A stretch of 64,000 nucleotides of DNA from Salinigranum salinum (lineage in GTDB: Archaea; Halobacteriota; Halobacteria; Halobacteriales; Haloferacaceae): contig NZ_VTOJ01000002.1 in assembly GCF_009176545.1 (NCBI RefSeq), positions 930,001-994,000 of the forward strand, in the 5' to 3' direction. The notes beneath the pieces are model-generated. The model was not told the origin of the DNA, did no database searches, and saw only the letters and a program-made list of their open reading frames with translations. Shown in pieces: positions 9,431-53,324 of the stretch. How positions within the stretch are numbered: the stretch's first letter is position 1; each line of letters opens with the position of its first letter. A program made the position numbers and the translations under genes.

Positions 9431-9979
9431 TCAGGACCCGCGGAGGTGCTGTATCGCCGCGGCACCGCTGAAGAGCACGAGTACGGCACCGCCCAGCCAG
9501 AACGGGGAGAGACTGCTCAGTAGTGGGACGCCAGCGACGACAGCGATCAGAAGGACGAGACTCAGTCCCGAGAGACCGAGGTAGATCACGCTCTGGGGGA
9601 CGCTGTGCTCCGAGACGACGTCGAGGTGGAGGCTGAACTCGGCGAGCTGGTCGGAGGGCGTGATGAGGCCCTGTTCTTTGTCGAACTCCACGACGCCGAC
9701 GTCGTCCATCCGCGGGAGATGCGTCTGCTGGAGCGACGTGTAGACGCGCTTTCGTTCGGCGGTCGTCACTTCCTCGACAGTCGTATCGTTCTCGCGCGCA
9801 GCCACGCGGCGCGCGAGCGTGTCGAGGGACGTCGGTTCCTGGTGCTGTCGGAGGTAGTCGATGACGTACCTGCGTCGGCAGTTGCCGAGCAGGTCGTACA
9901 GTTCCTCGCGCTCGACGGTCGGTTCGTGGTCTGGCGCCTGAGGTTCCTGGGAAACGGTCGACTCCAGGACGCTACTCAT
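9431..9979 (-). CDS. DUF7344-type winged-helix regulator with C-terminal membrane hairpin
   Basis: 182 aa. Residues about 24-110 form the haloarchaeal DUF7344 wHTH: REELYDLLGNCRRRYVIDYLRQH, then ERKRVYTSLQQTHLPRMDDVGVVEFD. The C-terminal 55 residues hold two hydrophobic helices (VIYLGLSGLSLVLLIAVVAGV and SPFWLGGAVLVLFSGAA), so the DNA-binding domain may be tethered to the membrane. A paralogue lies just upstream in the same direction and both are divergent from the surface-protein array, consistent with local regulators of it. DNA target unknown. Confidence 0.82.
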   Translation of the reverse strand: MSSVLESTVSQEPQAPDHEPTVEREELYDLLGNCRRRYVIDYLRQHQEPTSLDTLARRVAARENDTTVEEVTTAERKRVYTSLQQTHLPRMDDVGVVEFDKEQGLITPSDQLAEFSLHLDVVSEHSVPQSVIYLGLSGLSLVLLIAVVAGVPLLSSLSPFWLGGAVLVLFSGAAAIQHLRGS

Positions 9980-10069: not shown

Positions 10070-10642
10070 TCATTCTGGCGGTACCCCTCCGTGTCCGAGC
10101 CGACTCCGTCGCTGGTGAACGTGGTGGACGACCGACGACGAGGCGAACAGTGCGACCACGAACCCCAGCCAGACGAGTGGTTGCAGTTCGGTAAGTGGAT
10201 ACACGCCCGCCCACGCGGCGCCGAGGAAGCCGGCGCTGAGCGCGGCGACGCCGACGTAGTACGTCGACCACTGGATGTCCTGTTCGGGGACGAGTTCGAC
10301 GTAGATGTCGACGTCCGCGGCTTCGTCGGTCAGCTCTACCACGCTGTTCTCGTCGTCGAAGTCGATCATCCCGGCGTCTTCGAGGGTCGGGAGGTGACTC
10401 TGTAACAGCGAGATGTAGACTCGCTTGCGATCGTCCGCGGCAACCTCGACGGCGGGAGTGTCGGTCTCCCAGGCGGCGATCTGTTCGGCGAGGTCGCCGA
10501 CTGAGACGACCTCCTCACGCTGTTTCAGGTAGTGGAGCGCGTAGCGTCGTCGCTTGTTCCGGAGAACCCTGAAGATGGCTTCCTCGTCGAGCGGTTCGGG
10601 GCCCACTGACGCTCGGAGTGGTGATAGCCACGCGGTTCCCAT
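10070..10642 (-). CDS. Second DUF7344-type wHTH regulator with C-terminal membrane hairpin
   Basis: 190 aa from the start at 10642 (an in-frame ATG at 10651 is possible; the longest frame opens at 10708). A TATA-like TTTACTTATTA at 10668-10678 (minus strand) sits 26-36 bases before 10642. The wHTH reads EEAIFRVLRNKRRRYALHYLKQREE and later DRKRVYISLLQSHLPTLEDAGMIDFDD; two hydrophobic helices (YYVGVAALSAGFLGAAWAGV and LVWLGFVVALFAS) follow. It is a clear paralogue of the neighbouring gene and diverges from the vWA surface-protein gene across a 375-base regulatory interval. Confidence 0.82.
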   Translation of the reverse strand: MGTAWLSPLRASVGPEPLDEEAIFRVLRNKRRRYALHYLKQREEVVSVGDLAEQIAAWETDTPAVEVAADDRKRVYISLLQSHLPTLEDAGMIDFDDENSVVELTDEAADVDIYVELVPEQDIQWSTYYVGVAALSAGFLGAAWAGVYPLTELQPLVWLGFVVALFASSSVVHHVHQRRSRLGHGGVPPE

Positions 10643-10791
10643 CACGAACATGGTATTCGATTGATGCGTAATAAGTAAATGCGGGTTACGCCCATGAGAG
10701 TGACTCACAATGGGAACGGAGGTCAGTTCTGGCCGTCGTTAGGGATCGTTAAGGACGTGTTGTGTGGATCAGTGGCCCCCGCTGGGCTCTC

Positions 10792-10880
10792 CTAACGAAC
10801 TGCGTTCCCCGTCTAACCGTCTTCGTCCCTCGGCTAACTTCCCTCCACGCCGCGCTAACTTGGCACCCAGGAGTCCTAAT
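10792..10880 (+). promoter_or_regulatory. Five CTAA(C/T) words phased at exactly 21 bp
   Basis: CTAAC occurs at 10792, 10813, 10834 and 10855 and CTAAT at 10876, every interval being exactly 21 bp (two helical turns), while the 16-base spacers differ in sequence. Regular phasing with variable spacers is what a row of binding sites for a multimerising regulator on one DNA face would give. The array lies upstream of the vWA surface-protein gene and of the divergent DUF7344 gene, and ends 11 bases before the shared promoter box. Confidence 0.72.
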
Positions 10881-10891
10881 TTCCACAACAG

Positions 10892-10903
10892 GTCAATTCA
10901 TAC
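10892..10903 (+). promoter_or_regulatory. Promoter box GTCAATTCATAC (copy 1)
   Basis: This 12-mer recurs exactly at 14569-14580, in both cases 16 bases after the start of a CTAAT word. It probably contains the TATA element (AATTCATA) of the vWA surface-protein gene, giving a leader of roughly 90 nt before the ATG at 11018. Confidence 0.6.
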
Positions 10904-11017: not shown

Positions 11018-12676
11018 ATGTCCAAAGAAGACGACAGAGGCCAGTTCGATTTCTCGCGGCGCAAGCTCCTCGGCTCCGTGGCGACACTCGGGGCCGCAGG
11101 CGCACTTGGCGGCGCGGGAACGATGGCCTTCTTCAGCGATAGCGAAGACTTCGCGAACAACACGCTCACCGCCGGTGAACTCGACCTCAAGGTCGACTGG
11201 GAGGAGCACTACTCCGACTGGTCGGAGGACGAAGACGACGGTCTGAACGGCAGCACTCTCGACATCCAGATGTCTGACCCGGGTAGCAGCGATTACACTC
11301 CGCTTCCGGATCCACAGAATCCGCTTATCTGGGTGGCCAATGGCGACCTCGGTCAGTTCATGGATAACACGTCGATCGAGGCGTACCCAGACGTGAACGA
11401 CGACGGTGTCCAGGATCCGTTCGGTGAGACGACCGACGGCGTTGACGTGGGTGACATCTGTGTCGATGGCGCGGATACCCCAGAAGCGCTCGATTCTGAT
11501 TTCCGGACCGAAGGGAGCCGCGGTGAGCCGCTCATCAACCTGATGGACGTGAAACCCGGTGACTTCGGTGAACTCACGCTGAGCTTCCACCTCTGTAACA
11601 ACCCCGGGTACGTCTGGTTGACAGGCGCACCCGTGAGTGCAGCGGAGAACGGACATACCGAACCCGAAGCGAAAGACGATCAAGAGGAAGGTCCCGCGGA
11701 CGAGGAAGCGACCGGTCAGGCCGTTCTCGACTCTGACGTCGAGCTACTCGACGAAATCCAAACCACGTGGTGGTACGACGACGGCGACAACGTCTTGGAT
11801 CCGGGCGGCACCGTGGAAGGTCAGTCGGCGGACGTCATGATTGTCTTCGACCGCTCCGGGTCGATGACTAACCAGGCGAACAAGTTCCAGAACGCGAAGG
11901 ACGGGGCGAAGGCACTCGTGGACGCGCTGGGTCCCAACGCAAACGTCGGTCTCGTCTCCTTCGCCAACACTGCCACTGTCGACGAGCCTCTGGGAACGGC
12001 TGGGTCCACCGTCAAGAGCACTATTGATGGTCTCAGTGCTAGTGGATCGACCAATATCAATGACGCTATTCAGGATGCGGCGTCTCAACTTAGCGGTGGG
12101 TCCGGAGATGAAAAGTACATGGTCCTGCTCAGCAACGGTGGGGCCAATGTGGGTGGCGATCCCCGTCCTGCGGCGAATAGCTTCAAGTCAAACCCTGACA
12201 GCACGCTCATCGGTATCGCCTACGGAACCGGTGCGAACGAGTCTCTGATCGAAGACCTTTCGAGCCCGCCGAAGAACAACAATGGTTCCGTTGATGCCGG
12301 AGACGCGAACGCCTTCTTCGGCAGCATCTCCACCATCCAGGACGTCTTCGACGACATCGGTGCCATCATCGCCGCACCGGGCGAGGAAGTCATCTTCCGT
12401 GGGTCGTTGCGGGATTCCCTGGACGCACTCTCCAGTGGGAACGGCATCCCACTCGACGGCGATCTGGAAACGTCGTTCGATGAGATCGATGGGGCGGAAG
12501 ATGCCGACGCACGCGAGTGCTTCGTGGCGAGTAACGACTACTACATCGGCTTCGCGTGGTACCTGCCGGTCGACCACGCCAACGAGATCCAGGGTGACTC
12601 GGTGAGCTTCGACCTCGGCTTCTACACCGAGCAGTGCCGCCACAACGACGGTATCGCCAACATGCCAAACAGCTAA
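11018..12676 (+). CDS. SipW-dependent TasA/camelysin-like surface protein with inserted vWA domain
   Basis: 552 aa. The N-terminus joins a twin-arginine (FSRRKLLG, RR 14-15), a hydrophobic core, and a SipW-type cleavage region (TMAFFSDSEDFANN then TAGELDLKVDW). The beta-sandwich core shared with the paralogues includes DVKPGDFGELTLSFHLC and the C-terminal PVDHANEIQGDSVSFDLGF with EQCRHNDG. A von Willebrand A domain (about 272-450) sits in a loop: MIDAS DRSGSMT with Asp278, Ser280 and Ser282, then STNINDAI. The third position reads LLSNG instead of the usual LLTDG. First gene of the array, behind the phased CTAAC sites. Role inferred: adhesive subunit of an extracellular fibre or matrix. Confidence 0.85.
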   Translation: MSKEDDRGQFDFSRRKLLGSVATLGAAGALGGAGTMAFFSDSEDFANNTLTAGELDLKVDWEEHYSDWSEDEDDGLNGSTLDIQMSDPGSSDYTPLPDPQNPLIWVANGDLGQFMDNTSIEAYPDVNDDGVQDPFGETTDGVDVGDICVDGADTPEALDSDFRTEGSRGEPLINLMDVKPGDFGELTLSFHLCNNPGYVWLTGAPVSAAENGHTEPEAKDDQEEGPADEEATGQAVLDSDVELLDEIQTTWWYDDGDNVLDPGGTVEGQSADVMIVFDRSGSMTNQANKFQNAKDGAKALVDALGPNANVGLVSFANTATVDEPLGTAGSTVKSTIDGLSASGSTNINDAIQDAASQLSGGSGDEKYMVLLSNGGANVGGDPRPAANSFKSNPDSTLIGIAYGTGANESLIEDLSSPPKNNNGSVDAGDANAFFGSISTIQDVFDDIGAIIAAPGEEVIFRGSLRDSLDALSSGNGIPLDGDLETSFDEIDGAEDADARECFVASNDYYIGFAWYLPVDHANEIQGDSVSFDLGFYTEQCRHNDGIANMPNS

Positions 12677-12707: not shown

Positions 12708-12775
12708 GACTCACGCGGGTGCACGACGCGCGGTCACTTGACCGCACTACGGCGGTTCGACTCCGCCGGTGGGTT
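12708..12775 (+). promoter_or_regulatory. tRNA-like leader element A
   Basis: 68 nt ending 25 bases before the ATG at 12801. GACTCAC (12708-12714) can pair with GTGGGTT (12769-12775) as a 7-bp acceptor-like stem. CGGCGG-TTCGACT-CCGCCG (12750-12768) forms a T-arm with the canonical GGTTCGACTCC sequence. The interior holds another hairpin, GCGGTC-ACTT-GACCGC. No proper anticodon arm is present, so it is not a tRNA gene. A GC hairpin (CCCGGCCTGGG) follows. Confidence 0.68.
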
Positions 12776-12800: not shown

Positions 12801-14333
12801 ATGAAAGACGACACACTCGGCGTTTCACGACGGAAGCTCCTCGGTGCGATGGGCACCATCGGTGGAGCCGCTGCACTGGGTGGTGCGAGCACGATGGCCT
12901 TCTTCTCCGACGAGGAGGAGTTCTCGAACAACGAGCTGGTCGCTGGCGAACTCGACCTCAAGGTCGACTGGCAGGAGTACTACTCCGACTGGTCGCCCGA
13001 CGAGTCAGCTGGACTGCGGTTCGATCCGGTAATGGATCTCGAAGACATCCCGGACAGCAACCCCGACGGGCTCACACCTGATCCTAGCGACCCGGCGTCC
13101 TGGATCGCGTTCCCGCCGGCACTCGACGACCTCCTGTACGTCTGGGCCGGCGACGCCGATCAGTTCATCGACAACACGGCCGTCGACGCGTATCCGGATT
13201 CGGACGGCGACGACCTCCGAGACGACATCAGGACCAGGAGGGAGATCGGGGAAGACAATCGGTTCCTCCCCGATTCGGAGATAGAACGTCTCTATCGGGA
13301 GCAGTTCGCAGACGTCCCCGACGACCTCCAGGGACGTCGCCCGCTCATCGATCTCACGGACGTCAAACCCGGGGACTTCGGCGAGGTCACGTTCAGCGTA
13401 CACCTGTTCGATAATCCCGGATATCTCTGGCTCGAGGGTGGCATCCACTCGCTCGACGAGAACGGCACCACGGAGCCCGAGCGACGCGACGAGGACGAGG
13501 AAGAGGGAGTAGTCGAACTGCTCGACGAGATCAGGGTCGCCGTCTGGCACGACGACGGGAACGACGTGCTCAACGACGTGGAGGACGTCATCTTCCCGAA
13601 GCCGGCTGATGGGCCCGATGCGGACGAAAACCTCGAAATACCCCAGGAGCAGGCGCTCATCACTCAGGGGACGCTCCGTGATCTGCTCGAACTGCTCTCG
13701 GCCGACACCGGAATCCCGCTGGATGCGGACCCGACGACCAGCGGGCGTGACTGCTTCCCGAATTCGACGACGCGGTTCGTCGGCTTCGCGTGGTGGCTGC
13801 CGGTCGACCACGCCAACGAGATCCAGACGGATTCGGTGACGTTCGACCTCGGCTTCTACACCGAGCAGTGCCGCCACAACGACGGCAGTGGGATGATTCC
13901 AGAGGGTCGAAGCAGCGTCTCCGTGACCGCGAGCGATCCGACCACCGACAGCAGCTCACGCCATCAGGTAGAAGTCGAAGTCGGTGACGACCTCGACGGG
14001 CATACGTTGGGCGAACTCGTCGTGGACTATCCGAGCGATTTCGACATCAGCGGCGTCGCTCCCGCCGACGCATCGGATCTGAGCTACGACGTCGATTCGT
14101 CGTTTGGTGGTGCACTCCCACAGGTCGTTCCGACGGTGACTCAGGTGAACCGAAGCGACGACGACACCCGTATCTCGTTCACGCTCTCGAACTCGCTTCC
14201 ACTCGCCGCACTCGAGCGGTTTTCGCTCGAGTACGGCGACGCACAGAACGCATCGTCGGCGAGAACATACTCCGTCGACGCCGAAATCAACGGTGTCGCT
14301 GTCGGATCTGCCGAGCTCTCGATAACGACATAG
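12801..14333 (+). CDS. SipW-dependent TasA/camelysin-like surface protein with C-terminal extra domain
   Basis: 510 aa from the ATG at 12801, which fits the paralogues' MxxxLxxSRRKLLGAMGT opening; an upstream in-frame ATG at 12738 lies inside the tRNA-like leader and is rejected. Twin-arginine plus SipW motif (STMAFFSDEEEFSNN, LVAGELDLKVDW), then DVKPGDFGEVTFSVHL and PVDHANEIQTDSVTFDLGF. After EQCRHNDG about 150 residues extend as a second beta-rich, Ig-like segment (VSVTASDPTTDSSSRHQVEV onward) that no other copy has. Secreted; function inferred to be structural. Confidence 0.85.
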   Translation: MKDDTLGVSRRKLLGAMGTIGGAAALGGASTMAFFSDEEEFSNNELVAGELDLKVDWQEYYSDWSPDESAGLRFDPVMDLEDIPDSNPDGLTPDPSDPASWIAFPPALDDLLYVWAGDADQFIDNTAVDAYPDSDGDDLRDDIRTRREIGEDNRFLPDSEIERLYREQFADVPDDLQGRRPLIDLTDVKPGDFGEVTFSVHLFDNPGYLWLEGGIHSLDENGTTEPERRDEDEEEGVVELLDEIRVAVWHDDGNDVLNDVEDVIFPKPADGPDADENLEIPQEQALITQGTLRDLLELLSADTGIPLDADPTTSGRDCFPNSTTRFVGFAWWLPVDHANEIQTDSVTFDLGFYTEQCRHNDGSGMIPEGRSSVSVTASDPTTDSSSRHQVEVEVGDDLDGHTLGELVVDYPSDFDISGVAPADASDLSYDVDSSFGGALPQVVPTVTQVNRSDDDTRISFTLSNSLPLAALERFSLEYGDAQNASSARTYSVDAEINGVAVGSAELSITT

Positions 14334-14509: not shown

Positions 14510-14580
14510 TTAATGACCTATCAGACCCGTATTAATTAGTCTCGCAGAATGTCTAATCGGAGCAATGAGTCAATTCATAC
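14510..14580 (+). promoter_or_regulatory. Second promoter: TTAAT/TTAAT/CTAAT words plus GTCAATTCATAC (copy 2)
   Basis: TTAAT at 14510 and 14532 and CTAAT at 14553 are 22 and 21 bp apart, and GTCAATTCATAC begins at 14569, 16 bases after CTAAT, exactly the geometry at 10876/10892. This indicates that the gene at 14780 starts a second, co-regulated transcription unit with a leader of nearly 180 nt that includes tRNA-like element B. The stretch 14334-14779 holds no gene. Confidence 0.62.
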
Positions 14581-14675: not shown

Positions 14676-14757
14676 GACCCACGCAGGCGCTTCCAGTGCG
14701 ATCGTCGTCCCGCGGCGATCCCGCCCCGAAACGACGGTTCGACTCCGTCGGTGGGTT
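14676..14757 (+). promoter_or_regulatory. tRNA-like leader element B
   Basis: 82 nt. GACCCAC (14676-14682) pairs with GTGGGTT (14751-14757). The T-arm is CGACGG-TTCGACT-CCGTCG (14732-14750). The interior carries a GATCG...CGATC hairpin. Relative to element A, the second T-stem pair is A-T instead of G-C, a compensatory change that keeps the helix. It ends 22 bases before the ATG at 14780. Confidence 0.68.
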
Positions 14758-14779: not shown

Positions 14780-16693
14780 ATGACAGACAAATTCGACATC
14801 TCCCGACGGAAGATGCTCGGTGCGATGGGTACCATCGGTGGTGCTGCGGCGCTCGGTGGCGCCAGCACGCTGGCGTTCTTCTCCGACTCCGAGGAGTTCG
14901 CGAACAGCCAGCTCACCGCCGGCGAGCTCGATCTCAAGGTCGACTGGTCTGAACACTACTCCGACTGGTCGGAAGACGAAACAGCAGGACTCTCCGACTG
15001 GAGCATGACCGACTCCAGTGTCGGTCCGGGGTTCCCCTCGGCGGCAGCGACCAAGTCGATTTACGTGAGCGACTCGTCTCAGTTCCTCGAGAACACGGCG
15101 ATCGAAGCCTACCCGGACCCGGACAACGACGCGATCCAAGAGGGCGAGTTCCCGGACGGGAGTGGGGGCAGCACGACCGACATCTGCGAGTCGCCTTCGG
15201 ACCTGCCTACCGCACTGAACAACGGCGACTGGCGGACTACGGGACCGGTTCCCGCCGGCAACGATGGTGCGAACCAACAGACCACGGAAGCGGGCGATCC
15301 GCTCGTCGAGATCAGCGACGTCAAACCGGGTGACTTCGGAGAGGTCACGTTCAGCCTCCACCTCTGCGGCAACCCCGGTTTCGTCTGGCTCACCGGCGAC
15401 CTCGTCGAGGCCAGCGAGAACGGGAAGACTGAACCCGAGGAAGACGACGGAGACGAGGGACCAGGGGTCGAACTCCTCGACGAGATCCAGGCCGCCGTCT
15501 GGTACGACACCGGTGCGGACGGACAGTACGGGACTGGTGACATGGGAGAGGGGGACAACTACAAACAGGCCGGCGAATCGTTCACTCCGCTCACTGGATC
15601 GCTCCGACGGGTTCTCGCTATCCTCCGAAACGGCATGCTGCCGCTCGACTACACGCCCGGAAGTGGTGGAAGTGGTGGAACGGGCGGCAGCGGAGGAGGC
15701 GGCGCCACGATTGTCTCGGACGCGTCGGCCGCGCTGGGGGCTAGCCCCTACACGAACTCGGACTTAGGAATCGATCAACCGAGCAATATTTCTTGCTCCG
15801 CGCTCGGTGGCATGCTCGACGAGATCGGGTTCTCCGAACGGCCACTCGTCGGAACGAAGTTCGAACCCGGCTCAGGTGGTGACTTCGATCTCTCACCTGG
15901 AACCTACAACATCGCTCCGGGTTCAATCACTATCGAGAGCGTGAATGTCGCTGGTGGGACCATCTCCCTGACAACCGACTTCGCAGTCGAGACGGTGATG
16001 GTGAAAGGTGGAAAGCCAGCCGACGGTGAAAACGTCTGGGTGTTCGATGACGATGGCGTCCGACTCAGTAACGTCCAGTTCTCGATTCCGGACTCGATAA
16101 GCCACGTCGAGGTCTGTTACGAGCCCAGCACGTCCAATGGGGGCAATGGTGGCCTCCAGCAGAACGGCCGCGAGTGTTTCCCGAACTCGACCACGGTGTA
16201 TCTCGGCTTCGAGTGGTGGTTGCCTGTCGACCACGCCAACGAGATCCAGACGGACTCGGTCAGCTTCGACCTCGGCTTCTACACCGAGCAGTGTCGCCAC
16301 AACGACGGCCAGATGGGCAACAATGGTGCAGGTGGTGGCGGCGGACCGGACAACGGTACTGATGGCGGTCAGGCTATCAGCTTCATCGCCTGGTGTACTG
16401 ACGGGGATGCGAGCGCCCTCAACCCCACCATCGACGAAGAACTCGCCTTCGACGACGACGGTGACCCGTCCTCCGTCAGGTGGTCGACCGACGCCGGCGT
16501 GGACAGAGTCGTCGTGTTTTACGCCAGTCGAGTGACGATTTACGAGTACGACTCCCCCGTGACGGGCGACGTGGCGACCACGGGCACCACGAGTGACGGA
16601 TCTGGTGTGACTGTCACGGATCGCGATGCAAACCTCCCAGAAGACGCAAATAATCCCTGTGGAGACCTGAACGGTGTGAAAGTGGAGTTCTGA
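14780..16693 (+). CDS. SipW-dependent TasA/camelysin-like surface protein with Gly-rich hinge and two extra domains
   Basis: 637 aa (a TTG six bases upstream is less likely). Opening FDISRRKMLGAMGTIGG, then STLAFFSDSEEFANS and LTAGELDLKVDW; conserved DVKPGDFGEVTFSLHLC and PVDHANEIQTDSVSFDLGF. A Gly/Ser hinge (SGGSGGTGGSGGGG) precedes an inserted beta domain of the VKGG...HVEVCY type (VMVKGGKPADGENVWVF ... SHVEVCYEP), which also occurs in the 1004-residue paralogue. After EQCRHNDG a further 125 residues form a beta-rich tail containing an IAWCTDGD motif. Behind its own promoter and leader B. Confidence 0.86.
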   Translation: MTDKFDISRRKMLGAMGTIGGAAALGGASTLAFFSDSEEFANSQLTAGELDLKVDWSEHYSDWSEDETAGLSDWSMTDSSVGPGFPSAAATKSIYVSDSSQFLENTAIEAYPDPDNDAIQEGEFPDGSGGSTTDICESPSDLPTALNNGDWRTTGPVPAGNDGANQQTTEAGDPLVEISDVKPGDFGEVTFSLHLCGNPGFVWLTGDLVEASENGKTEPEEDDGDEGPGVELLDEIQAAVWYDTGADGQYGTGDMGEGDNYKQAGESFTPLTGSLRRVLAILRNGMLPLDYTPGSGGSGGTGGSGGGGATIVSDASAALGASPYTNSDLGIDQPSNISCSALGGMLDEIGFSERPLVGTKFEPGSGGDFDLSPGTYNIAPGSITIESVNVAGGTISLTTDFAVETVMVKGGKPADGENVWVFDDDGVRLSNVQFSIPDSISHVEVCYEPSTSNGGNGGLQQNGRECFPNSTTVYLGFEWWLPVDHANEIQTDSVSFDLGFYTEQCRHNDGQMGNNGAGGGGGPDNGTDGGQAISFIAWCTDGDASALNPTIDEELAFDDDGDPSSVRWSTDAGVDRVVVFYASRVTIYEYDSPVTGDVATTGTTSDGSGVTVTDRDANLPEDANNPCGDLNGVKVEF

Positions 16694-16712: not shown

Positions 16713-16771
16713 GACCCACGCTGGTGCACCACGACGGTTCGATTCCGTCGGTGGGCCTTCCCGAAAGGGAA
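16713..16771 (+). promoter_or_regulatory. tRNA-like leader element C1 with following hairpin
   Basis: GACCCAC (16713-16719) against GTGGGCC (16751-16757), with one A-C mismatch. T-arm CGACGG-TTCGATT-CCGTCG at 16732-16750; its loop differs from the others at one position yet still fits the tRNA T-loop consensus. A TTCCC-GAAA-GGGAA hairpin (16758-16771) follows, then an ATG at 16776 that opens no gene and runs straight into element C2. Confidence 0.6.
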
Positions 16772-16777
16772 TTCCAT

Positions 16778-16884
16778 GACCCACGCAGGCGCCAACGTCC
16801 GGACGCGTCACCTGGCATTTTCCCAATGCATTCCCCTTCCCGACGCTCCGACGTCGCGCGGCGGTTCGACTCCGTCGGTGGGTC
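16778..16884 (+). promoter_or_regulatory. tRNA-like leader element C2
   Basis: GACCCAC (16778-16784) and GTGGGTC (16878-16884) pair perfectly over 7 bp across a 93-base interior. T-arm GGCGG-TTCGACT-CCGTC (16860-16876) keeps pairing through one G-T wobble. It ends 26 bases before the ATG at 16911. Together C1 and C2 look like two leaders left in tandem after loss of the gene between them. Confidence 0.6.
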
Positions 16885-16910: not shown

Positions 16911-17501
16911 ATGAGCAAGCGGCGATTCGACGTTTCGTGACGAGAGCTCCTCGGTGCAATGGGTACGATTGGCGGTGCAGTCGCACTGGGTGGTGCCGGT
17001 ACGACGACGTTCTTCAGCGACACTGAAGAGTTCGCGAACAACGAGCTCACCGCCCGCGAGCTGGACAGGAAGGTGGCGTACTCTGCGCAGTACTCCGACT
17101 GGTCACCAGACGAAGACGGGAGTGACACATCCGGTGACACTACCGACGATGTCGATGTGGTCATGTGGAGTGGTGCGCCGGAGACGACCGGGACGGCCAG
17201 TGACCTCCCGACGCTCGACGCGATTCAGACCGGGCCAGTCGACCGGAGCGCGTACGGTGCGAACCTCACGACCACCCACGACTACCGCGACGAGAAGGTC
17301 CTGGCGCTATCGCTCCAGACCGGGAGCGTGTCCGGTATCGACCTCGAGGCGGACATCGGCAACGTCACGGTGATGCTCACGAGTGGTGAGACGTTGAACC
17401 TAGATCTCGAACCGTGGAGACGCTCGGTTCGAGGCACGTTCTCACGCCCTAACCCACACCGGTGTCCGACGGCGGGGCGACTCCGCCGAGGAGTCCCCTG
17501 A
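16911..17501 (+). pseudogene. Nonsense-mutated and shortened SipW-type surface-protein gene
   Basis: The frame opens MSKRRFDVS, then TGA (16938-16940), then RELLGAMGTIGGAVALGG and FFSDTEEFANNELTARELD, ending at 17501. In every intact paralogue the codon at the TGA encodes the first arginine of the twin-arginine pair; a single CGA-to-TGA change explains it. About 150 codons follow, but the conserved DVKPGDFGE and PVDHANEIQ blocks are absent and GELDLK has become RELDRK, so drift is advanced. Restart from an internal ATG (16959) would lack the twin-arginine motif. Confidence 0.82.
17453..17495 (+). promoter_or_regulatory. Degenerate tRNA-like element D
   Basis: CCCACACCGGTGTCCGACGG...CGACTCCGCC lines up with the other leaders. 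The T-stem GGCGG/CCGCC (17471-17475 with 17483-17487) is kept, but the loop reads GGCGACT and the 3' acceptor strand is lost. It overlaps the 3' end of the decayed gene. 17502-17808 holds nothing else recognisable apart from a CATTATG box at 17781-17787. Confidence 0.45.
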
Positions 17502-18349: not shown

Positions 18350-21300
18350 GTGACACTCGCCGAGGTTGTGTTCGTCGTCAGAGAGGTGATCGCAGTGCTC
18401 GGCCCGTGGGGGACGGTCGCTCTCCTGACGGCGATCGGGGTGCTGATCGGCACGTGGTACGTCGATCGATTCGAGTCCGACTTGCTCTCCGCCGTCGACG
18501 ACTCCGATGAGACGGGGACTGCTGAGGGGAGAGAGACGATGGACACCGAGGAACGGGAGCCAGTCGACGGGGAACAGACGCGAGCCGTGGATGCCGAAGC
18601 GACGGCAGGCGAGACGGACGTTTCGGAACCCGAACCCGTCGACGTCGCGTTCGCCGAGCTGGCCGACGTCTTCGCCGTGGTCACCGACCCGGAGTTCTCA
18701 CCGCCCGGGTTCGGCGAGGGGCCGACTGAGCTGGTGTTCGAGGGTCTGTCCCCCGCGGTCTCGGCAGTGTCCGAGTCGGTGGTGACTCCGGTCGAGATCC
18801 CGACGGAGCTCTCCTTCGACGAACGCACACCCGCCGTGTCGAAGAGTGTCGACCCCGTCGTGGCCCCGGTTCGGGCCCCAGTGGAACTGTCGTTCGGCAG
18901 TCTGGCTCACGCAGTCTCGGCGGCATCCGAGCCGGTGGTGACTCCGGTCGAGATCCCGACGGAGCTCTCCTTCGACGGACTGACTGACGCCGTCTCGGTG
19001 ACATCCGAGCCGGTGGTGACTCCGGTCGAGATCCCGACGGAGCTCTCCTTCGACGAACGCACACCCGCCGTGTCGAAGAGTGTCGACTCCGTCGTGACCC
19101 CGGTTCGGACCCCAGTAGAACTGTCGTTCGGCAGTCTGGCCCACGCGGTCTCGGCAGTGTCCGAGCCGGTGGTGGCTCCGGTCCAGACTCCGACGGATCT
19201 CTCCTTCGACGGGCTGACCGACGCCGTCTCGACGGTGTCCGAGCCGGCAGTGACGCCGATCGAGATCCCGACGGAGCTCTCGTTCGACGGAGTCACGGCA
19301 GTCGTATCGAGGTGTGCCGATCCCGTCGTAACTCCAGTTCGAGTTCCAACAGAACCCGCGTTCGACGACCTGACGAGCGTCGTCTCGGCGGCATCCGAAC
19401 CGGTGGTCGAACCCGTGGAACCGCCTGTCAGTGCCGCTGTCGACGACCCGTGGGACGTCAGGGCGGACGAGGGCGTCGGTCAGACCGAAATCGAACTGGC
19501 CGCCTCTCCGTCGCTGCTTTTCGGCGAGTCTGAGACGTCCCCGTCGATCGACGACCGGTGGGAGGTCGGGTCGGACGCCGACGCCAGTGCGGCCGAGAGA
19601 CGAGGTCGCACCGCGGGAAACGTGACGGCTCCGGATGGGGCGGCTGAACAGCGAGAACGGGGACAGAACGAAGCCGCGACCGAGAGAGAGGGAACAACCG
19701 CGGACCGAGTCGACGAGGGAGCGTCGACGACCGCAGACGGGGGCGACGACAGTGAAAACGATTCGACCGCTCTGCTGGGAGAGGATTCGTCCGTGCCTCG
19801 TCGGAAGCTCCTCGGGGCCCTCGCGACGATCGGTGGTGCGGCCGCGTTCGGCGGTTCGGGGACGAGCGCGTTCTTCAGCGACCGCGAGGAGTTCGCGAAC
19901 AACCAGCTGGTCGCGGGTGACCTCGACCTGAAGGTCGACTGGACCGAGCACTACTCCGACTGGTCCGACGACGAGACCGACGGTCTCACCGAGAGCCAGT
20001 TCAGTATGGAGCCGGGCGAGGGACTGGTCGGGTTCCCGTCGGCCGCGCCAGAAGGACAGCAGTCCGTCTTCGTCGACGAGGACGAGATACAGACGTTCCT
20101 CGACAACACGGCGATCGAGGCGTTCCCGGACGCCGACCCGACACTCGACCCGGAAACCGTCGACCAGGACGACTACGACGCGCTGCAGACACCGTTTGCG
20201 AACGACAGCGACATCTGTGACCTCGACGCGGACCTCGGTGACGCGCTGAGCCATCCGTACCGAACGCGGGGGACGTTCGGCGGTGGTGACAACCCGCAAA
20301 CGACGGAGCCGGGCGATCCGCTCATCGACATCTCAGATCTCAAACCGGGCGACTTCGGCGAGGTCACGTTCAGTCTCCACCTCTGCGGAAACCCCGGCTA
20401 CGTCTGGTTGACTGGCGCGCGTGGGGAGGCTTCGGAGAACGGAGTCACCGAACCCGAAAGTGAGTCGCCCGCGGAACAGGAGGGTGTCGTCGAGCTCTTC
20501 GATGCCGTGCAGGTCGCACTCTGGTACGACACCGGGGTTGACGGTGTGTTCGGTGCCGACGCGGACGACAAAGACGCTGGAGAGGGTGACAACTTCCACC
20601 AGACGAACGAAGCGCTCATCCCACTGATGGGATCGCTCGGTGACGTACTCACGCAACTCGAATCGGGGATGTACCCGCTCGACGCGGTTCCGATCTCGGC
20701 GGCCGACGGCGACGGCACGGGTGGAACGACTGGCGGCGTCACCGGTCCCGGTGACGCCGAGACGTACATCAGTACCGAGGACCCGTTCGATACGCAGGGG
20801 GCGGGAAACCTCACGTGTACTGATTACGGGAGGGTCCTCGGGATCGACGGGCTGGTCGGTACGGCGATCGAGGCACGGGTCGACACGGACGGTGATGGAG
20901 AGGAGGACCGCGACGTGTTGCAGGACGACACGGCGTTCAGTGCCTGCGGCGGGACCCTCACGGTGAACAGCGTCGACATCGACGGTGGAACCATCACGGT
21001 TTCGACGAACTTCCCGGTCCGCGTCTTCAGCGTCAAGGGCGGTAGGCAGGGAGAGAACATCTACGTGTGGCCCGAACCAGGCGTTGTCCTCGACGGGGTG
21101 ACGTTCTCAACGCCCACCGGACAGGCCATCAGCAACATCGATGTCTGTTGCGGGACCGATGACGGCAACGGCGGTGCTGGCGGCCAGAACGGAGCGCGCG
21201 ACTGCCTGCCGAACTCCACGACCGCGTACCTCGGCTTCGAGTGGTGGATCCCGATGGACGTCGGCAACGAGATCCAGACCGACTCGGTCAGCTTCGACCT

Positions 21301-21364
21301 CGGCTTCTACACCGAACAGTGCCGACACAACGACGGCTCGGGAATGGCCGACAGGGGTGGGTGA
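18350..21364 (+). CDS. 1004-residue fusion: membrane anchor + nine 26-aa repeats + SipW-type surface domain
   Basis: Starts at GTG 18350, overlapping the possible extended end of the preceding frame. Residues about 10-35 form one hydrophobic helix, 50-124 are acidic, 125-358 are nine consecutive 26-residue repeats (PTELSFDGLTDAVS...EPVVTPVEI), and 359-480 are acidic and low-complexity. At residue 483 a complete paralogue-type opening begins: PRRKLLGALATIGGAA, TSAFFSDREEFANN, LVAGDLDLKVDW. It continues through DLKPGDFGEVTFSLHLC and a VKGG domain to EIQTDSVSFDLGF. A GTG at 19793 with GGAGAGGA 7 bases before it could start the surface domain separately. Unusual architecture; whether one or two proteins are made is unknown. 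Confidence 0.8.
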   Translation: MTLAEVVFVVREVIAVLGPWGTVALLTAIGVLIGTWYVDRFESDLLSAVDDSDETGTAEGRETMDTEEREPVDGEQTRAVDAEATAGETDVSEPEPVDVAFAELADVFAVVTDPEFSPPGFGEGPTELVFEGLSPAVSAVSESVVTPVEIPTELSFDERTPAVSKSVDPVVAPVRAPVELSFGSLAHAVSAASEPVVTPVEIPTELSFDGLTDAVSVTSEPVVTPVEIPTELSFDERTPAVSKSVDSVVTPVRTPVELSFGSLAHAVSAVSEPVVAPVQTPTDLSFDGLTDAVSTVSEPAVTPIEIPTELSFDGVTAVVSRCADPVVTPVRVPTEPAFDDLTSVVSAASEPVVEPVEPPVSAAVDDPWDVRADEGVGQTEIELAASPSLLFGESETSPSIDDRWEVGSDADASAAERRGRTAGNVTAPDGAAEQRERGQNEAATEREGTTADRVDEGASTTADGGDDSENDSTALLGEDSSVPRRKLLGALATIGGAAAFGGSGTSAFFSDREEFANNQLVAGDLDLKVDWTEHYSDWSDDETDGLTESQFSMEPGEGLVGFPSAAPEGQQSVFVDEDEIQTFLDNTAIEAFPDADPTLDPETVDQDDYDALQTPFANDSDICDLDADLGDALSHPYRTRGTFGGGDNPQTTEPGDPLIDISDLKPGDFGEVTFSLHLCGNPGYVWLTGARGEASENGVTEPESESPAEQEGVVELFDAVQVALWYDTGVDGVFGADADDKDAGEGDNFHQTNEALIPLMGSLGDVLTQLESGMYPLDAVPISAADGDGTGGTTGGVTGPGDAETYISTEDPFDTQGAGNLTCTDYGRVLGIDGLVGTAIEARVDTDGDGEEDRDVLQDDTAFSACGGTLTVNSVDIDGGTITVSTNFPVRVFSVKGGRQGENIYVWPEPGVVLDGVTFSTPTGQAISNIDVCCGTDDGNGGAGGQNGARDCLPNSTTAYLGFEWWIPMDVGNEIQTDSVSFDLGFYTEQCRHNDGSGMADRGG
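18722..19423 (+). repeat. Nine 78-bp (26-aa) tandem repeats with a 234-bp super-repeat
   Basis: Nine units without any insertion or deletion. Each reads P-T/V-E-L-S-F, a variable D-x-x-T/A-x-A-V-S core, E/D-P-V-V-T/A-P-V, then two residues. Units 2-4 (DERTPAVSKS, GSLAHAVSAA, DGLTDAVSVT) recur in the same order as units 5-7, so the array grew by duplication of a three-unit block. The repeats encode a stalk-like segment. Confidence 0.9.
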
Positions 21365-21406: not shown

Positions 21407-21448
21407 GACCCACGCTGGCGCACGACGGTTCGACTCCGTCGGTGGGCT
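21407..21448 (+). promoter_or_regulatory. tRNA-like leader element E (minimal form)
   Basis: 42 nt: GACCCAC (21407-21413), a short linker, T-arm CGACGG-TTCGACT-CCGTCG (21423-21441) and GTGGGCT (21442-21448; five firm pairs). This is the smallest copy, essentially an acceptor/T-arm minihelix. It lies 24 bases before the ATG of a small gene at 21473 and lacks the GC hairpin seen after A, C1 and F. Confidence 0.6.
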
Positions 21449-21751: not shown

Positions 21752-22065
21752 GCCGTGAACGAGGAACGTACAGGGGCGCGGGCATGATGTTCGATCTAAC
21801 CGGGTTCCAGCGGGACCTCCTCTACGTCACCGCCGGTCTCGAACAGCCATCGGGCCAGACGATCAAGGAGGCGCTCAGCGAGGACCGCGGAGAGGTCAAC
21901 CCAGGCCGTCTGTATCCGAACCTGGACACGCTCGTGGAGCGAAGTCTCGTCGAGAAGGGAGAACAGAACGGACGCAGCAACTACTACCAGATCACGGAGA
22001 AGGGACTCGAAACGATCCGGAGCCGACGCGAGTGGGAGGATAGACAGCTACCGGGTGGCGTATGA
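21748..22065 (+). CDS. PadR-family wHTH transcriptional regulator
   Basis: 105 aa, or 93 from the ATG at 21784 (MFDLTGFQRDLLYVTAGLEQ is the usual haloarchaeal PadR opening). The winged helix is complete: TGFQRDLLYV, TIKEALSED, GRLYPNLDTLVERSLVEKGEQ, then NYYQITEKGLETIRSR. Start and stop overlap the neighbouring genes by 4 bases each, so it is made with the surface protein that follows and is well placed to control that operon. Effector and operator unknown. Confidence 0.88.
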   Translation: MSRERGTYRGAGMMFDLTGFQRDLLYVTAGLEQPSGQTIKEALSEDRGEVNPGRLYPNLDTLVERSLVEKGEQNGRSNYYQITEKGLETIRSRREWEDRQLPGGV

Positions 22066-23896: not shown

Positions 23897-23955
23897 GACC
23901 CACGCCGGTGCACGACGGGCGGTTCGACTCCGCCGGTGGGTCTTCCCGCAACGGG
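23897..23955 (+). promoter_or_regulatory. tRNA-like leader element F with following hairpin
   Basis: GACCCAC (23897-23903) and GTGGGTC (23936-23942) form a perfect 7-bp stem; T-arm GGCGG-TTCGACT-CCGCC at 23918-23934. A CCCG-CAA-CGGG hairpin follows (23945-23955), then the ATG at 23968. With elements A and D it carries the G-C version of the covarying T-stem pair. Confidence 0.68.
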
Positions 23956-26155: not shown

Positions 26156-26980
26156 ATGACGGACCGATCTGACGACACTGGACGGGGAGACGGCACGCCT
26201 GCACCAGACGGGGATCACAGAGCGAGTGGTGAGTCGCAAACCGGCGGTGATGAAGAACGACAGCCACTGGATGGAGGACTCGATCTGACTCGTCGGGGTC
26301 TCCTCTCTGGAGTCGCCGCGATCGGCGTCGTCGGGTCGCTCACGGGCGTTGGAACCCAGATGGCGTTGTCGGACCGTAACCGGTTCGAGGAGAACCGTCT
26401 GGAATCCGGGAGCCTCGAACTCGGTCTCGCGTGGGAAGAACGCTACAACGGTACCACACAAGAAGACGAGGGCGTCTGTGGCAGTGAGACGTGGGACGCA
26501 TACCACGACGTCTCGGAAGCCATCGTCGAACTCGACGCTGTCGAGCCCGGTGATTCCGGAACGCTCGACGTCTGCCTCCGACTGTCTGCGAACGTGGATT
26601 CGACCTGGATGCGACTCCTCGTCCACTCGGTCGCCGAGAACGGCGTCAACTCGACCGAGGAACAGGCGGGCGATGTGACGCCCGACGTCGGCGAACTCCA
26701 GAAATATCTCGAGGTGACCGTCCAGACCGACAGTGATTGTGAGACCGCCCGCGAGACCAGTCCGCGCATCGAGGGCGACCTCGCGCAGATGGGAGCCGGT
26801 CCACTCGGGACTGGTATGCAGCTGGCGGAGGCGACACGCTGTGTCATCATCGAGTGGCAACTCCCGGAGGACGTCCCGGCGACGATCCTGACGGACTCGG
26901 TCGAATTCGCCATCGATTTCGCTGCCGTGCAGTCCCGTCCTGACGACTCACAGAGCCCCTGGGCAAACAGTAACTCATGA
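26156..26980 (+). CDS. Divergent SipW-dependent surface protein, coupled to signal peptidase
   Basis: 274 aa. A long acidic N-region precedes LTRRGLLSGVAAIGVVGSLTGVG and a SipW-like TQMALSDRNRFEENRL-ESGSLELGLAW. The core continues with DAVEPGDSGTLDVCLRLS, ENGVNSTEEQ, and ends LTDSVEFAIDFAAVQS. Its stop overlaps the signal-peptidase start (ATGA at 26977), a close link between substrate and processing enzyme like the tapA-sipW-tasA arrangement of Bacillus. The gap 25967-26155 holds no other gene. Confidence 0.78.
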   Translation: MTDRSDDTGRGDGTPAPDGDHRASGESQTGGDEERQPLDGGLDLTRRGLLSGVAAIGVVGSLTGVGTQMALSDRNRFEENRLESGSLELGLAWEERYNGTTQEDEGVCGSETWDAYHDVSEAIVELDAVEPGDSGTLDVCLRLSANVDSTWMRLLVHSVAENGVNSTEEQAGDVTPDVGELQKYLEVTVQTDSDCETARETSPRIEGDLAQMGAGPLGTGMQLAEATRCVIIEWQLPEDVPATILTDSVEFAIDFAAVQSRPDDSQSPWANSNS

Positions 26981-27627
26981 CACCGAAATTCACTCGCAGT
27001 ACCGTACTGAACACCCTCGGCGTCGTCCTGCTGATCGCACTGGTCGCACCGTTCGCGATGTACGCAGCGCCACAGACGATCGGGGCGACGGAGAGCTACG
27101 TCGTCATGTCCGGCAGTATGGAGCCGGCGATTCAGACGGGTGACGTCATCTTCGTCTACGATCGCGATCCGTCGACCATCGAGGAGGGCGACGTGATCAC
27201 GTACAACCTCGACGGACAGCGGACCGAAGTGACGACGCACCGCGTGGTCGACATCGTCGAGAACGAGGAGGGCCAGCGGGTGTTCGTCACGAAAGGTGAC
27301 GCGAACGAGGATCCCGACCCATACCGGGTGCCATCCGATGCAGTCATCGGCGTCATGCCGACGGACGGTATCCCCGCGCGGGTTCCGTTCCTCGGCCACG
27401 CACTGCTGTTCGCGCAGTCGAAACTCGGCATCGCGCTCCTCGTGTTCGTTCCTGCGGGACTCCTCGTGATCACGGAACTCTGGGACCTCTACAAGCACGC
27501 GACGAGTGGAGGCGATGACGGCACGGAGGAGACGGATGCAGAGCCCACAGACGACCAGCAGGAACAGATCGACGACAGCGTCCCGTCTGACTCATCCGCC
27601 ACGGCGGGCGCGGGAGACGACGACTGA
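26977..27627 (+). CDS. sipW: SipW-type signal peptidase I
   Basis: 216 aa, S26B (archaeal/ER/SipW) type. One N-terminal helix (11-30) precedes the catalytic serine in VVMSGSMEP (Ser47); the general-base position is His88 in TTHRVVD rather than lysine, and an acidic VTKGDANEDPDP box (Asp108) follows. A second hydrophobic helix near 137-160 anchors the C-terminus, followed by an acidic tail. It sits between a SipW-type substrate and a small membrane protein, overlapping both, so it is most likely the peptidase dedicated to this array. The symbol is by analogy. Confidence 0.92.
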   Translation: MTPKFTRSTVLNTLGVVLLIALVAPFAMYAAPQTIGATESYVVMSGSMEPAIQTGDVIFVYDRDPSTIEEGDVITYNLDGQRTEVTTHRVVDIVENEEGQRVFVTKGDANEDPDPYRVPSDAVIGVMPTDGIPARVPFLGHALLFAQSKLGIALLVFVPAGLLVITELWDLYKHATSGGDDGTEETDAEPTDDQQEQIDDSVPSDSSATAGAGDDD

Positions 27628-51874: not shown

Positions 51875-52572
51875 TTACCCCACCCGCTCCGCCTTGTCCG
51901 CCACCGATTCGGGCGGGTGTTGTGTGACGACCCGCTGGGCGGTTCGTTGTGACGAGACCAGGAGAGCCGACGAGCCGACGAAAAGAGCCGCGACGAGGGC
52001 GGTCCAGGCCACGTCCGGGACCGCCCGGAAGAGTGGGAGATCGAGCGCCGAGACGACGACGATGGCGACCGACACCCCCGACAGTCCCATGAACAGCTGT
52101 GGAATCCACTCCCTGTCCTCGGTCGCATCGAGGTCGAGCCGAAGGTTCTCCCCGTACTTCGTGAGTTCGATCGTGCTCTGCCGACGGTCGTACTCGATGA
52201 GCCCGAGGTCGGCTAGCTTCGGTGCGTGGAACTGGTACAACGACGTGTGGACGTTCTTCCGATCGTCGTATCTGATCGTGTCAGGATCGGTGCCTCGTTC
52301 CCACGCCGCTACCTGTCGTGAGACGTCCGCGAGGTCTACCGGACCGACTCCACCGTACTCTTGGAGATAGTGGAGGTGTAGCGTCGCCGGCGATTGTGGA
52401 TCGCTTCGAGAAGTTCCTCTCGTGACGGTACAGTCGCCTCGTCGGCCGGGGTCGCGACCGTGTGTTCCTGTTCGTTTTCTTGACCCTTCTGTTCTGAAAC
52501 GGGTCTCGATTGACCCGACCCCCCCTGTGCCCCTGCAGCGTTCTCCCTCCCTGCGGCGTGCTGTGTGACCAT
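51875..52572 (-). pseudogene. Frameshifted DUF7344-type membrane-anchored regulator
   Basis: Starts at ATG 52572 (MVTQHAAGRENAAGAQGG) and reads to REELLEAIHNRRRRYT, after which the domain continues one frame over as LHYLQEYGGVGPVDLADVSRQ, then DRKNVHTSLYQFHAPKLADLGLIEYD and two C-terminal hydrophobic helices. Comparison with the two intact paralogues (9431 and 10070) places the break at about 52380-52383, explained by loss of one base (TAC-AC-CTC in place of TAC-ACN-CTC). Real decay or a sequencing error cannot be told apart here. Confidence 0.78.
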
Positions 52573-53324
52573 GTGCACCTCTGTCCCCGGTTGCAATTCG
52601 CAAGACAGTATTGCTCGCGAAGCGGTTGTTCCATTGTCATTAGTGTCTAATAAGTGTTTGGGAGAGTATATGTCGGTTCCAATGTTATATTGTTTTGACC
52701 GTATATCGCGAGAATATTTCGCTCGATAATGTTGTGTAGATTGATGAATGAGACCAATCGTATCGTTGTCACATCTGACTGGCGGAGACGTCTCGATTGT
52801 CTGCGTCGGTTCTGAGGGATGGTCGGACGTGTCACGCTCAGAGGTAACAGTATTCTGATTTGGTTCGAAAGCGGTATTTTGGAAAAGTTCTGTCCGGTGA
52901 TAGCAGTATACTATCGTACGAAACACGGTAGTCGGTGGTCCACGACCGAAGTCGTGGGCTTCCACCTCGCACTCGTGTGAGTCCCGGTCGATCGTCTCCG
53001 CCCCGAACCGCATCACGGGCGGTCCTCCGTCGTCTCGACTCGTGTTCGACACTCCTTCGGCCGGAAGTGCCAGTGCAGTTTGATACGAAGTGAACGGGTA
53101 GGTGAGGTACGAGGGGCTCACGGTGTGCGGCACGAGTGGCGTGACTGGATGGGCCGGTCGCTCCCCCCCTTCGTCCGGGGATCGGGATAAACGCCCACAG
53201 GACGATGGGACGCCGTATATCCCGTTCGCAGTTCACCTGTACTTAAATAGAGTATGCCACCCGTATCACGTGCTCCAGTTCCCCGGGGAGACGGCCAGTT
53301 CGTGAAGAGCGGGCGTGAACAGCG
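52573..53324. other. Gene-free interval with AT-rich control DNA
   Basis: About 750 bases between the decayed regulator and the nitrate reductase operon. 52620-52760 is AT-rich and probably served the regulator's promoter. Longer open frames here have no motifs and poor composition. The operon promoter is near the right end. Confidence 0.5.
53243..53249 (+). promoter_or_regulatory. TATA-like box of the nitrate reductase operon
   Basis: TTAAATA in GC-rich surroundings, about 75 bases before the first ATG (53325), giving an expected leader near 50 nt. I looked for the palindrome CGAAC-N4-GTTCG reported for haloarchaeal denitrification promoters and saw only a half site (GTTCG at 53224-53228). 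Confidence 0.45.

Follow-up and report, generated by a model that had tools for sequence, protein, structure and literature searches.

A cluster of SipW-type genes in the haloarchaeon Salinigranum salinum is preceded by five copies of a short word, CTAAY, spaced exactly 21 bp apart. We hypothesize that this array is a multi-site operator to which a regulator binds cooperatively, and that the protein concerned is most likely the product of the divergent DUF7344 gene; for this explanation as a whole we estimate a probability of about 0.6. It is very probable that the array is an operator of several helically phased sites and that a cooperative regulator reads it, and the proposal that DUF7344 is its likeliest reader stands at roughly even odds. 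The window, as we call the whole 64,000-nucleotide stretch analysed here, comes from a 4.69-Mb genome in 5 contigs.

The array and its gene cluster

An initial annotation had described five words at an exact 21-bp period, separated by unrelated spacers and leading into a promoter box. A check of the sequence confirmed every one of the five starts:

10792..10796, plus strand: word 1, CTAAC (read in sequence)
10813..10817, plus strand: word 2, CTAAC (read in sequence)
10834..10838, plus strand: word 3, CTAAC (read in sequence)
10855..10859, plus strand: word 4, CTAAC (read in sequence)
10876..10880, plus strand: word 5, CTAAT (read in sequence)
10892..10903, plus strand: shared promoter box GTCAATTCATAC, a probable core-promoter element

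The spacers are indeed unrelated, as the mean identity between array units is 0.46, approximately what the shared 5-mer plus chance would give, with no leftover repeat identity between the words. The five TA steps are all in phase. Word 5 ends 11 nt before the box, such that several short copies adjoin the probable core promoter, and the TTCAT of GTCAATTCATAC at 10897 falls a further 21 bp past word 5 (10876). When the whole 64-kb window was scanned for all 5-mer classes (four fixed bases plus a purine or pyrimidine) at periods from 8 to 60, the CTAAY words at 10792-10876 were the sole five-copy array of any class at any period. The shuffled-sequence test that had been proposed for a chance origin was run, and the shuffles fail to yield such arrays: none appeared in 100 dinucleotide shuffles of the window, and with the last word held fixed 0 of 20,000 local shuffles gave at least two consecutive in-phase words, against four observed. 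The exact pattern of three YTAAY words at 21 bp has no second occurrence in the genome.

The array is located between two minus-strand DUF7344 genes and a run of SipW-type genes, midway in the divergon. The run extends from 11018 to about 27 kb, carries TIGR04088 signals and Camelysin-like N-termini, and has a signal peptidase at its end; it qualifies as a SipW-type secreted protein cluster, since TIGR04088 signals occur in it and a SipW-like signal peptidase is linked to it. Its main features are the following:

11018..12676, plus strand: first SipW-type gene, with TIGR04088 signal, Camelysin/M73-like N-terminus and inserted VWA domain
12801..14333, plus strand: second SipW-type gene
14780..16693, plus strand: third SipW-type gene, preceded by the second phased promoter
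18350..21364, plus strand: SipW-type gene whose N-terminal part contains a long repeat region
26977..27627, plus strand: archaeal signal peptidase I, SipW-like (TIGR02228, 1.3e-32; NF046067, 1.3e-29, below its cut-off)

Within the long N-terminal part of the gene at 18350-21364 are seven 78-bp direct repeats (18715-19416), and the SipW-type copy at 16917-17501, which has an in-frame TGA near its start, is probably a decayed paralogue. Elsewhere in the window, at about 50.7-52.6 kb, a DUF7344 gene (51875-52603, minus strand) has in its vicinity what remains of a SipW-like signal, lacking the FSD motif. A literature search found no paper on haloarchaea with SipW.

The third SipW-type gene has a phased promoter of its own, whose words were found by sequence scan:

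14510..14514, plus strand: TTAAT word
14532..14536, plus strand: TTAAT word, 22 bp on
14553..14557, plus strand: CTAAT word, 21 bp on
14569..14580, plus strand: second copy of the box GTCAATTCATAC, at a 16-nt offset from the last word, as in the first promoter

The observation that this promoter repeats the end of the first layout (CTAAT at 14553, 11 bases, then GTCAATTCATAC at 14569) was borne out, both copies of the box being exact, and the two TTAAT words at 14510 and 14532 are additions that the earlier reading had missed. With spacings of 22 and 21 bp the phasing here is 21-22 bp and not exact, and its chance probability is about 1.5e-4 (local shuffles, last word given). There is no divergent DUF7344 gene at this second promoter, which has words, spacing and box in common with the first.

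Phase is conserved among homologous promoters while the word changes

Comparison of the promoters of homologous SipW-type genes, which the initial annotation had recommended, indicates that two-turn phased words are kept and that the word itself depends on the lineage. Homologous gene regions were taken from same-family genomes, and the window was excluded from the test. The first set held 26 SipW-type promoters (25 from the same family, plus L033) and the second held 12, mostly from other haloarchaeal families of the order; one member is common to both, as L144 in the second is the same Haloarchaeobius promoter as L033 in the first. Motif search alone proved not to be diagnostic. The exact pattern of the window array, searched in 171 same-family genomes, gave remaining matches that were tandem repeats or unrelated, and a looser pattern recovered SipW-linked arrays together with many unrelated matches, reversed control patterns being similarly numerous. 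We therefore used a word-agnostic autocorrelation, in which identical 5-mers are counted at each distance with no word chosen beforehand.

In the first set the signal is at 21 bp (z 15.8) and 20 bp (z 7.2), with every other distance at or below 3.7, and in the second set it is at 10 bp (z 5.2), 21 bp (z 10.7), 32 bp (z 9.2) and 54 bp (z 4.2). These z values overstate significance because related sequences are not independent; that the families agree with one another carries more weight. In the pooled spectrum the peak is at 10.6 bp, with a power of 154 against a maximum of 86 in shuffles. Taken one by one, only 13 of 28 promoters reach significance (p<0.05). Control intergenic regions have raised multiples of 3 (9, 18 and 36), with 21 bp only about 2-fold up versus about 11-fold in the SipW-type promoters. 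Codon periodicity was rejected as a cause, as periods 18 and 24 are unraised in the SipW-type promoters.

Helical phase is kept from promoter to promoter, but the word is not: it reads GTTAG, GGTAGG, CCGTAG or GGTACG in relatives and CTAAC in the window. A YTAAY scan at 20-22 bp found three-copy arrays 5' of SipW-type genes in several relatives, and CCTACCG arrays at 22 bp were found in three more. Spacings are 20,20 for a GTTAG array, 22,22,22,21 for GGTAGG and 32,32,22,32 for GGTACG; in an array spaced 11,10,11, CCGTAG alternates with its near-complement GCTATGG one turn on. All single-promoter spacings are near multiples of 10.5 bp, and a central TA step is common to all word types. Identical short words at about 10.5-bp multiples 5' of a SipW-type gene define the class that we propose, and the window fits it. 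The CTAAC of the window is the complement of GTTAG, and is thus reversed relative to the SipW-type gene when compared with most relatives. Word orientation may matter little, however, as one group of relatives alternates both directions. In the GGTAGG group the array is closer to the DUF7344 start.

Boxes of the form [AG]TTA(G)CTAT or GTAACTAT are found in the relatives 59-191 nt 5' of the start codon, with the last phased word often merging in, and by visual alignment the GTCAATTCATAC of the window can be likened to them. In five loci (L068, L082, L083, L084 and L098) the DUF7344 side of the divergon has its own ATTACTAT-like box, resembling the core box of the SipW side.

DUF7344 as a candidate reader

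Two DUF7344 genes adjoin the array:

10070..10708, minus strand: divergent DUF7344 gene, candidate regulator (PF24035, 1.6e-30); translation may start near 10654
9431..9979, minus strand: second DUF7344 gene (PF24035, 3.6e-29)

Their PF24035 scores of 105.7 and 101.4 bits compare with a curated Pfam cut-off of 27.8, and the genome has 22 matches to the family. The earlier suggestion that a DUF7344 protein is the regulator gained ground on three counts, namely its position, its modelled fold and the agreement of word with clade, and it continues to be a candidate. In 24 of 28 promoters the gene on the divergent side is a DUF7344 gene. The AF2 model of the product of 10070-10708 (mean pLDDT 82.5) has a winged-helix domain at residues ~40-130 (pLDDT 88-98) followed by two hydrophobic predicted membrane-type helices at 147-166 and 177-202. 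Only about 15 residues separate the winged helix from the first of these, with no HAMP or sensor domain there. A Foldseek search of the PDB returned weak winged-helix matches only, to ArsR/MarR-type regulators such as HlyU, YodB and BigR (best E 0.1). A literature search found no paper on DUF7344.

Mapped on the DUF7344 tree, word type requires only 4 changes, the lowest number possible, compared with a shuffled mean of 11.3 (0 of 200 as low); the window protein itself has a long branch (2.7). Linkage alone could produce this correlation, as neighbouring promoter and regulator gene are co-inherited as a divergon. In each of two genomes, G071 and G077, two DUF7344 paralogues are paired with two different words. 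There is no 20-21 bp signal in the upstream regions of 18 DUF7344 matches elsewhere in the genome, which suggests that the arrays belong to SipW-type promoters and not to DUF7344 genes generally. At the other SipW-type locus of this genome (contig C1) a divergent DUF7344 gene is present and an array was not found; CAATTCAT nearby proved to be the start-codon region of that DUF7344 gene, and we dismissed it as a coincidence. The phased SipW-type promoters of one genus (L069, L076, L094 and L118) face an archaeal histone gene in place of DUF7344. These histone-linked promoters carry GTTA words, as does the DUF7344 divergon (L077) that accompanies one of them (L076) in the genome G074, where both kinds were compared; words common to both kinds of promoter point to a trans-acting factor.

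PadR, the other regulator that the initial annotation had named, lost support. The PadR-family gene (21787-22065) lies inside the SipW-type cluster, 11 kb from the array, and has a homologue in only one of ~60 related loci. We rejected it as the reader of the array, since the gene is in the cluster here yet is absent from nearly all related loci; it may regulate something local.

Alternative explanations

The most substantial rival accepts the phased operator and assigns it to another trans-acting reader, neither DUF7344 nor PadR, such as an unlinked haloarchaeal regulator, with DUF7344 as a conserved neighbour or a regulated gene. The four histone-linked promoters, together with the second promoter of the window, are phased without a DUF7344 neighbour, and the other DUF7344 genes of this genome are without arrays. 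However, no other regulator is seen conserved beside the promoters, in contrast to the 24 of 28 for DUF7344, and the pairing of paralogue with word differs within a single genome. We regard a different reader as a serious but unlikely possibility. Less probable again is a chromatin or DNA-shape element, in which phased TA steps bend or wrap a GC-rich promoter, with an archaeal histone or nucleoid protein and no sequence-specific reader. The central TA step of every word type and the in-phase TA steps of the window are consistent with such an element, as is the histone gene that is the divergent partner in some relatives. Yet the flanking bases are also identical within a promoter (CTAAC x4; CGGTAGG x4), which a bend would not need, the spacing is mostly 20-22 and not 10-11 bp, and both words and box are common to the second promoter.

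We likewise give little credence to pure autoregulation, in which the array would act on the divergent DUF7344 gene alone and its place before the SipW-type genes would be incidental. The position of the array midway in the divergon, and nearer the DUF7344 start in the GGTAGG group, would suit it, but the second promoter has the same words, spacing and box with no divergent DUF7344 gene, and arrays are kept in the histone-linked SipW-type promoters. That AT-containing words fell into this arrangement by chance, or that the array is what is left of a tandem repeat, has a negligible probability: chance is statistically refuted by both sets of shuffles and by a phase conserved independently in relatives, and a tandem repeat is opposed by spacers without residual repeat identity.

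Proposed mechanism and comparison with known systems

Computation establishes the array, its departure from chance, the helical phase kept in independent relatives, the DUF7344 linkage and the predicted fold; from these we infer the binding of a protein, its cooperativity, its identity and the direction of control. Hypothetically, a DNA-binding protein recognizes the short TA-centred words one by one; their spacing of two helical turns would place its copies along the same side of the double helix, where they would bind cooperatively across ~110 bp. The shuffles and the phase in relatives support this earlier suggestion of a cooperative regulator along one face. The bound array would switch the SipW-type cluster, and probably its divergent partner too; activation is the preferred reading, for the sole reason that the last word leads into the promoter box. 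The most likely protein would be the divergent DUF7344 product, a predicted winged helix with two C-terminal membrane-type helices, in which case the cluster may be controlled from the membrane. More broadly, and with somewhat less than an even chance of being right, we propose that such operators, with fixed phase and drifting word, are haloarchaea-wide and are read by DUF7344, a membrane-anchored family that would assemble on promoter DNA and link the genes for secreted SipW-type fibres to membrane state.

The layout has bacterial counterparts. At OmpR/PhoB-type operators winged-helix proteins line up head to tail along a single DNA face, in steps of 10-11 bp or twice that; these are two-component response regulators, and their words differ from those of the window. 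In the tapA-sipW-tasA operon of Bacillus, controlled by SinR and others, SipW-type signals, a dedicated signal peptidase and Camelysin/TasA-like substrates occur in one cluster, as SipW-type signals, signal peptidase and Camelysin-like substrates do in the window; we know of no phased array of the window type for that operon.

Membrane-spanning transcription regulators have been reported as widespread in archaea (PMC10269533). ArnR and ArnR1 of Sulfolobus acidocaldarius are membrane-bound one-component regulators of surface-filament operons, form oligomers, and combine an HTH with HAMP and sensor parts and with two membrane segments at the C-terminus (PMC6396743). Compared by features, the window DUF7344 is like them in its predicted N-terminal HTH and two predicted C-terminal membrane segments, and unlike them in having only a short stretch before the first membrane helix, without a HAMP or sensor domain. 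The ArnR boxes are two 15-bp inverted repeats, TCGAC-N5-GTCGA, both needed for binding (PMC6396743), whereas here there are 3-5 short words in helical phase (CTAAY, 21 bp apart, in the window). EarA of Methanococcus maripaludis has four 6-bp words just 5' of the BRE, needed for transcription of an archaeal surface-filament operon (PMC5512572). The window is similar in having several copies of a short TA-containing word directly 5' of the core promoter, but its word is CTAAY and not TACATA, the EarA word (quoted in PMC6396743). The window system may resemble ArnR and EarA in its working, and the features tested do not establish membership in either class.

Only a small number of archaeal operators are known, and multi-site examples are very rare. 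The type described here can be found by phase instead of by motif, and it offers a testable function for DUF7344, a large haloarchaeal family of unknown function, and suggests a possible switch for haloarchaeal secreted SipW-type clusters. Changing words in a fixed phase amount to a natural experiment in the co-evolution of regulator and operator.

A tRNA-like leader element

A tRNA-like leader is conserved across haloarchaeal genera. In the loci read it stands in front of 67 of the 104 SipW-type genes, a majority, and it usually lies 43-51 nt upstream of the start codon. Its consensus, CCCAC...(C)GGCGG-TTCGACT-CCGCC(G)GTGGG, looks like a tRNA acceptor and T-arm, with a near-invariant T-loop (TTCGAYT). 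An Rfam search gave no match at the gathering score. In the stems 5 of 11 pairs are changed on both sides (23 such cells), a result that 0 of 500 shuffles reached and that is lost in slid controls; pairing holds in 99.5% of cells, but rows were picked for pairing, so the double changes count as evidence and the percentage does not. In engineered Haloferax constructs, tRNA-like 't-elements' are described as processing signals (PMC4946936, PMC4326828). We hypothesize that the leader is a candidate natural t-element, at which RNase P and/or tRNase Z may cut polycistronic mRNA before each gene. The window contains these copies:

16715-16755, 21409-21446 and 23899-23940: leader elements, acceptor plus T-arm
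12751-12773, 14733-14755 and 16860-16882: T-arm part of the leader
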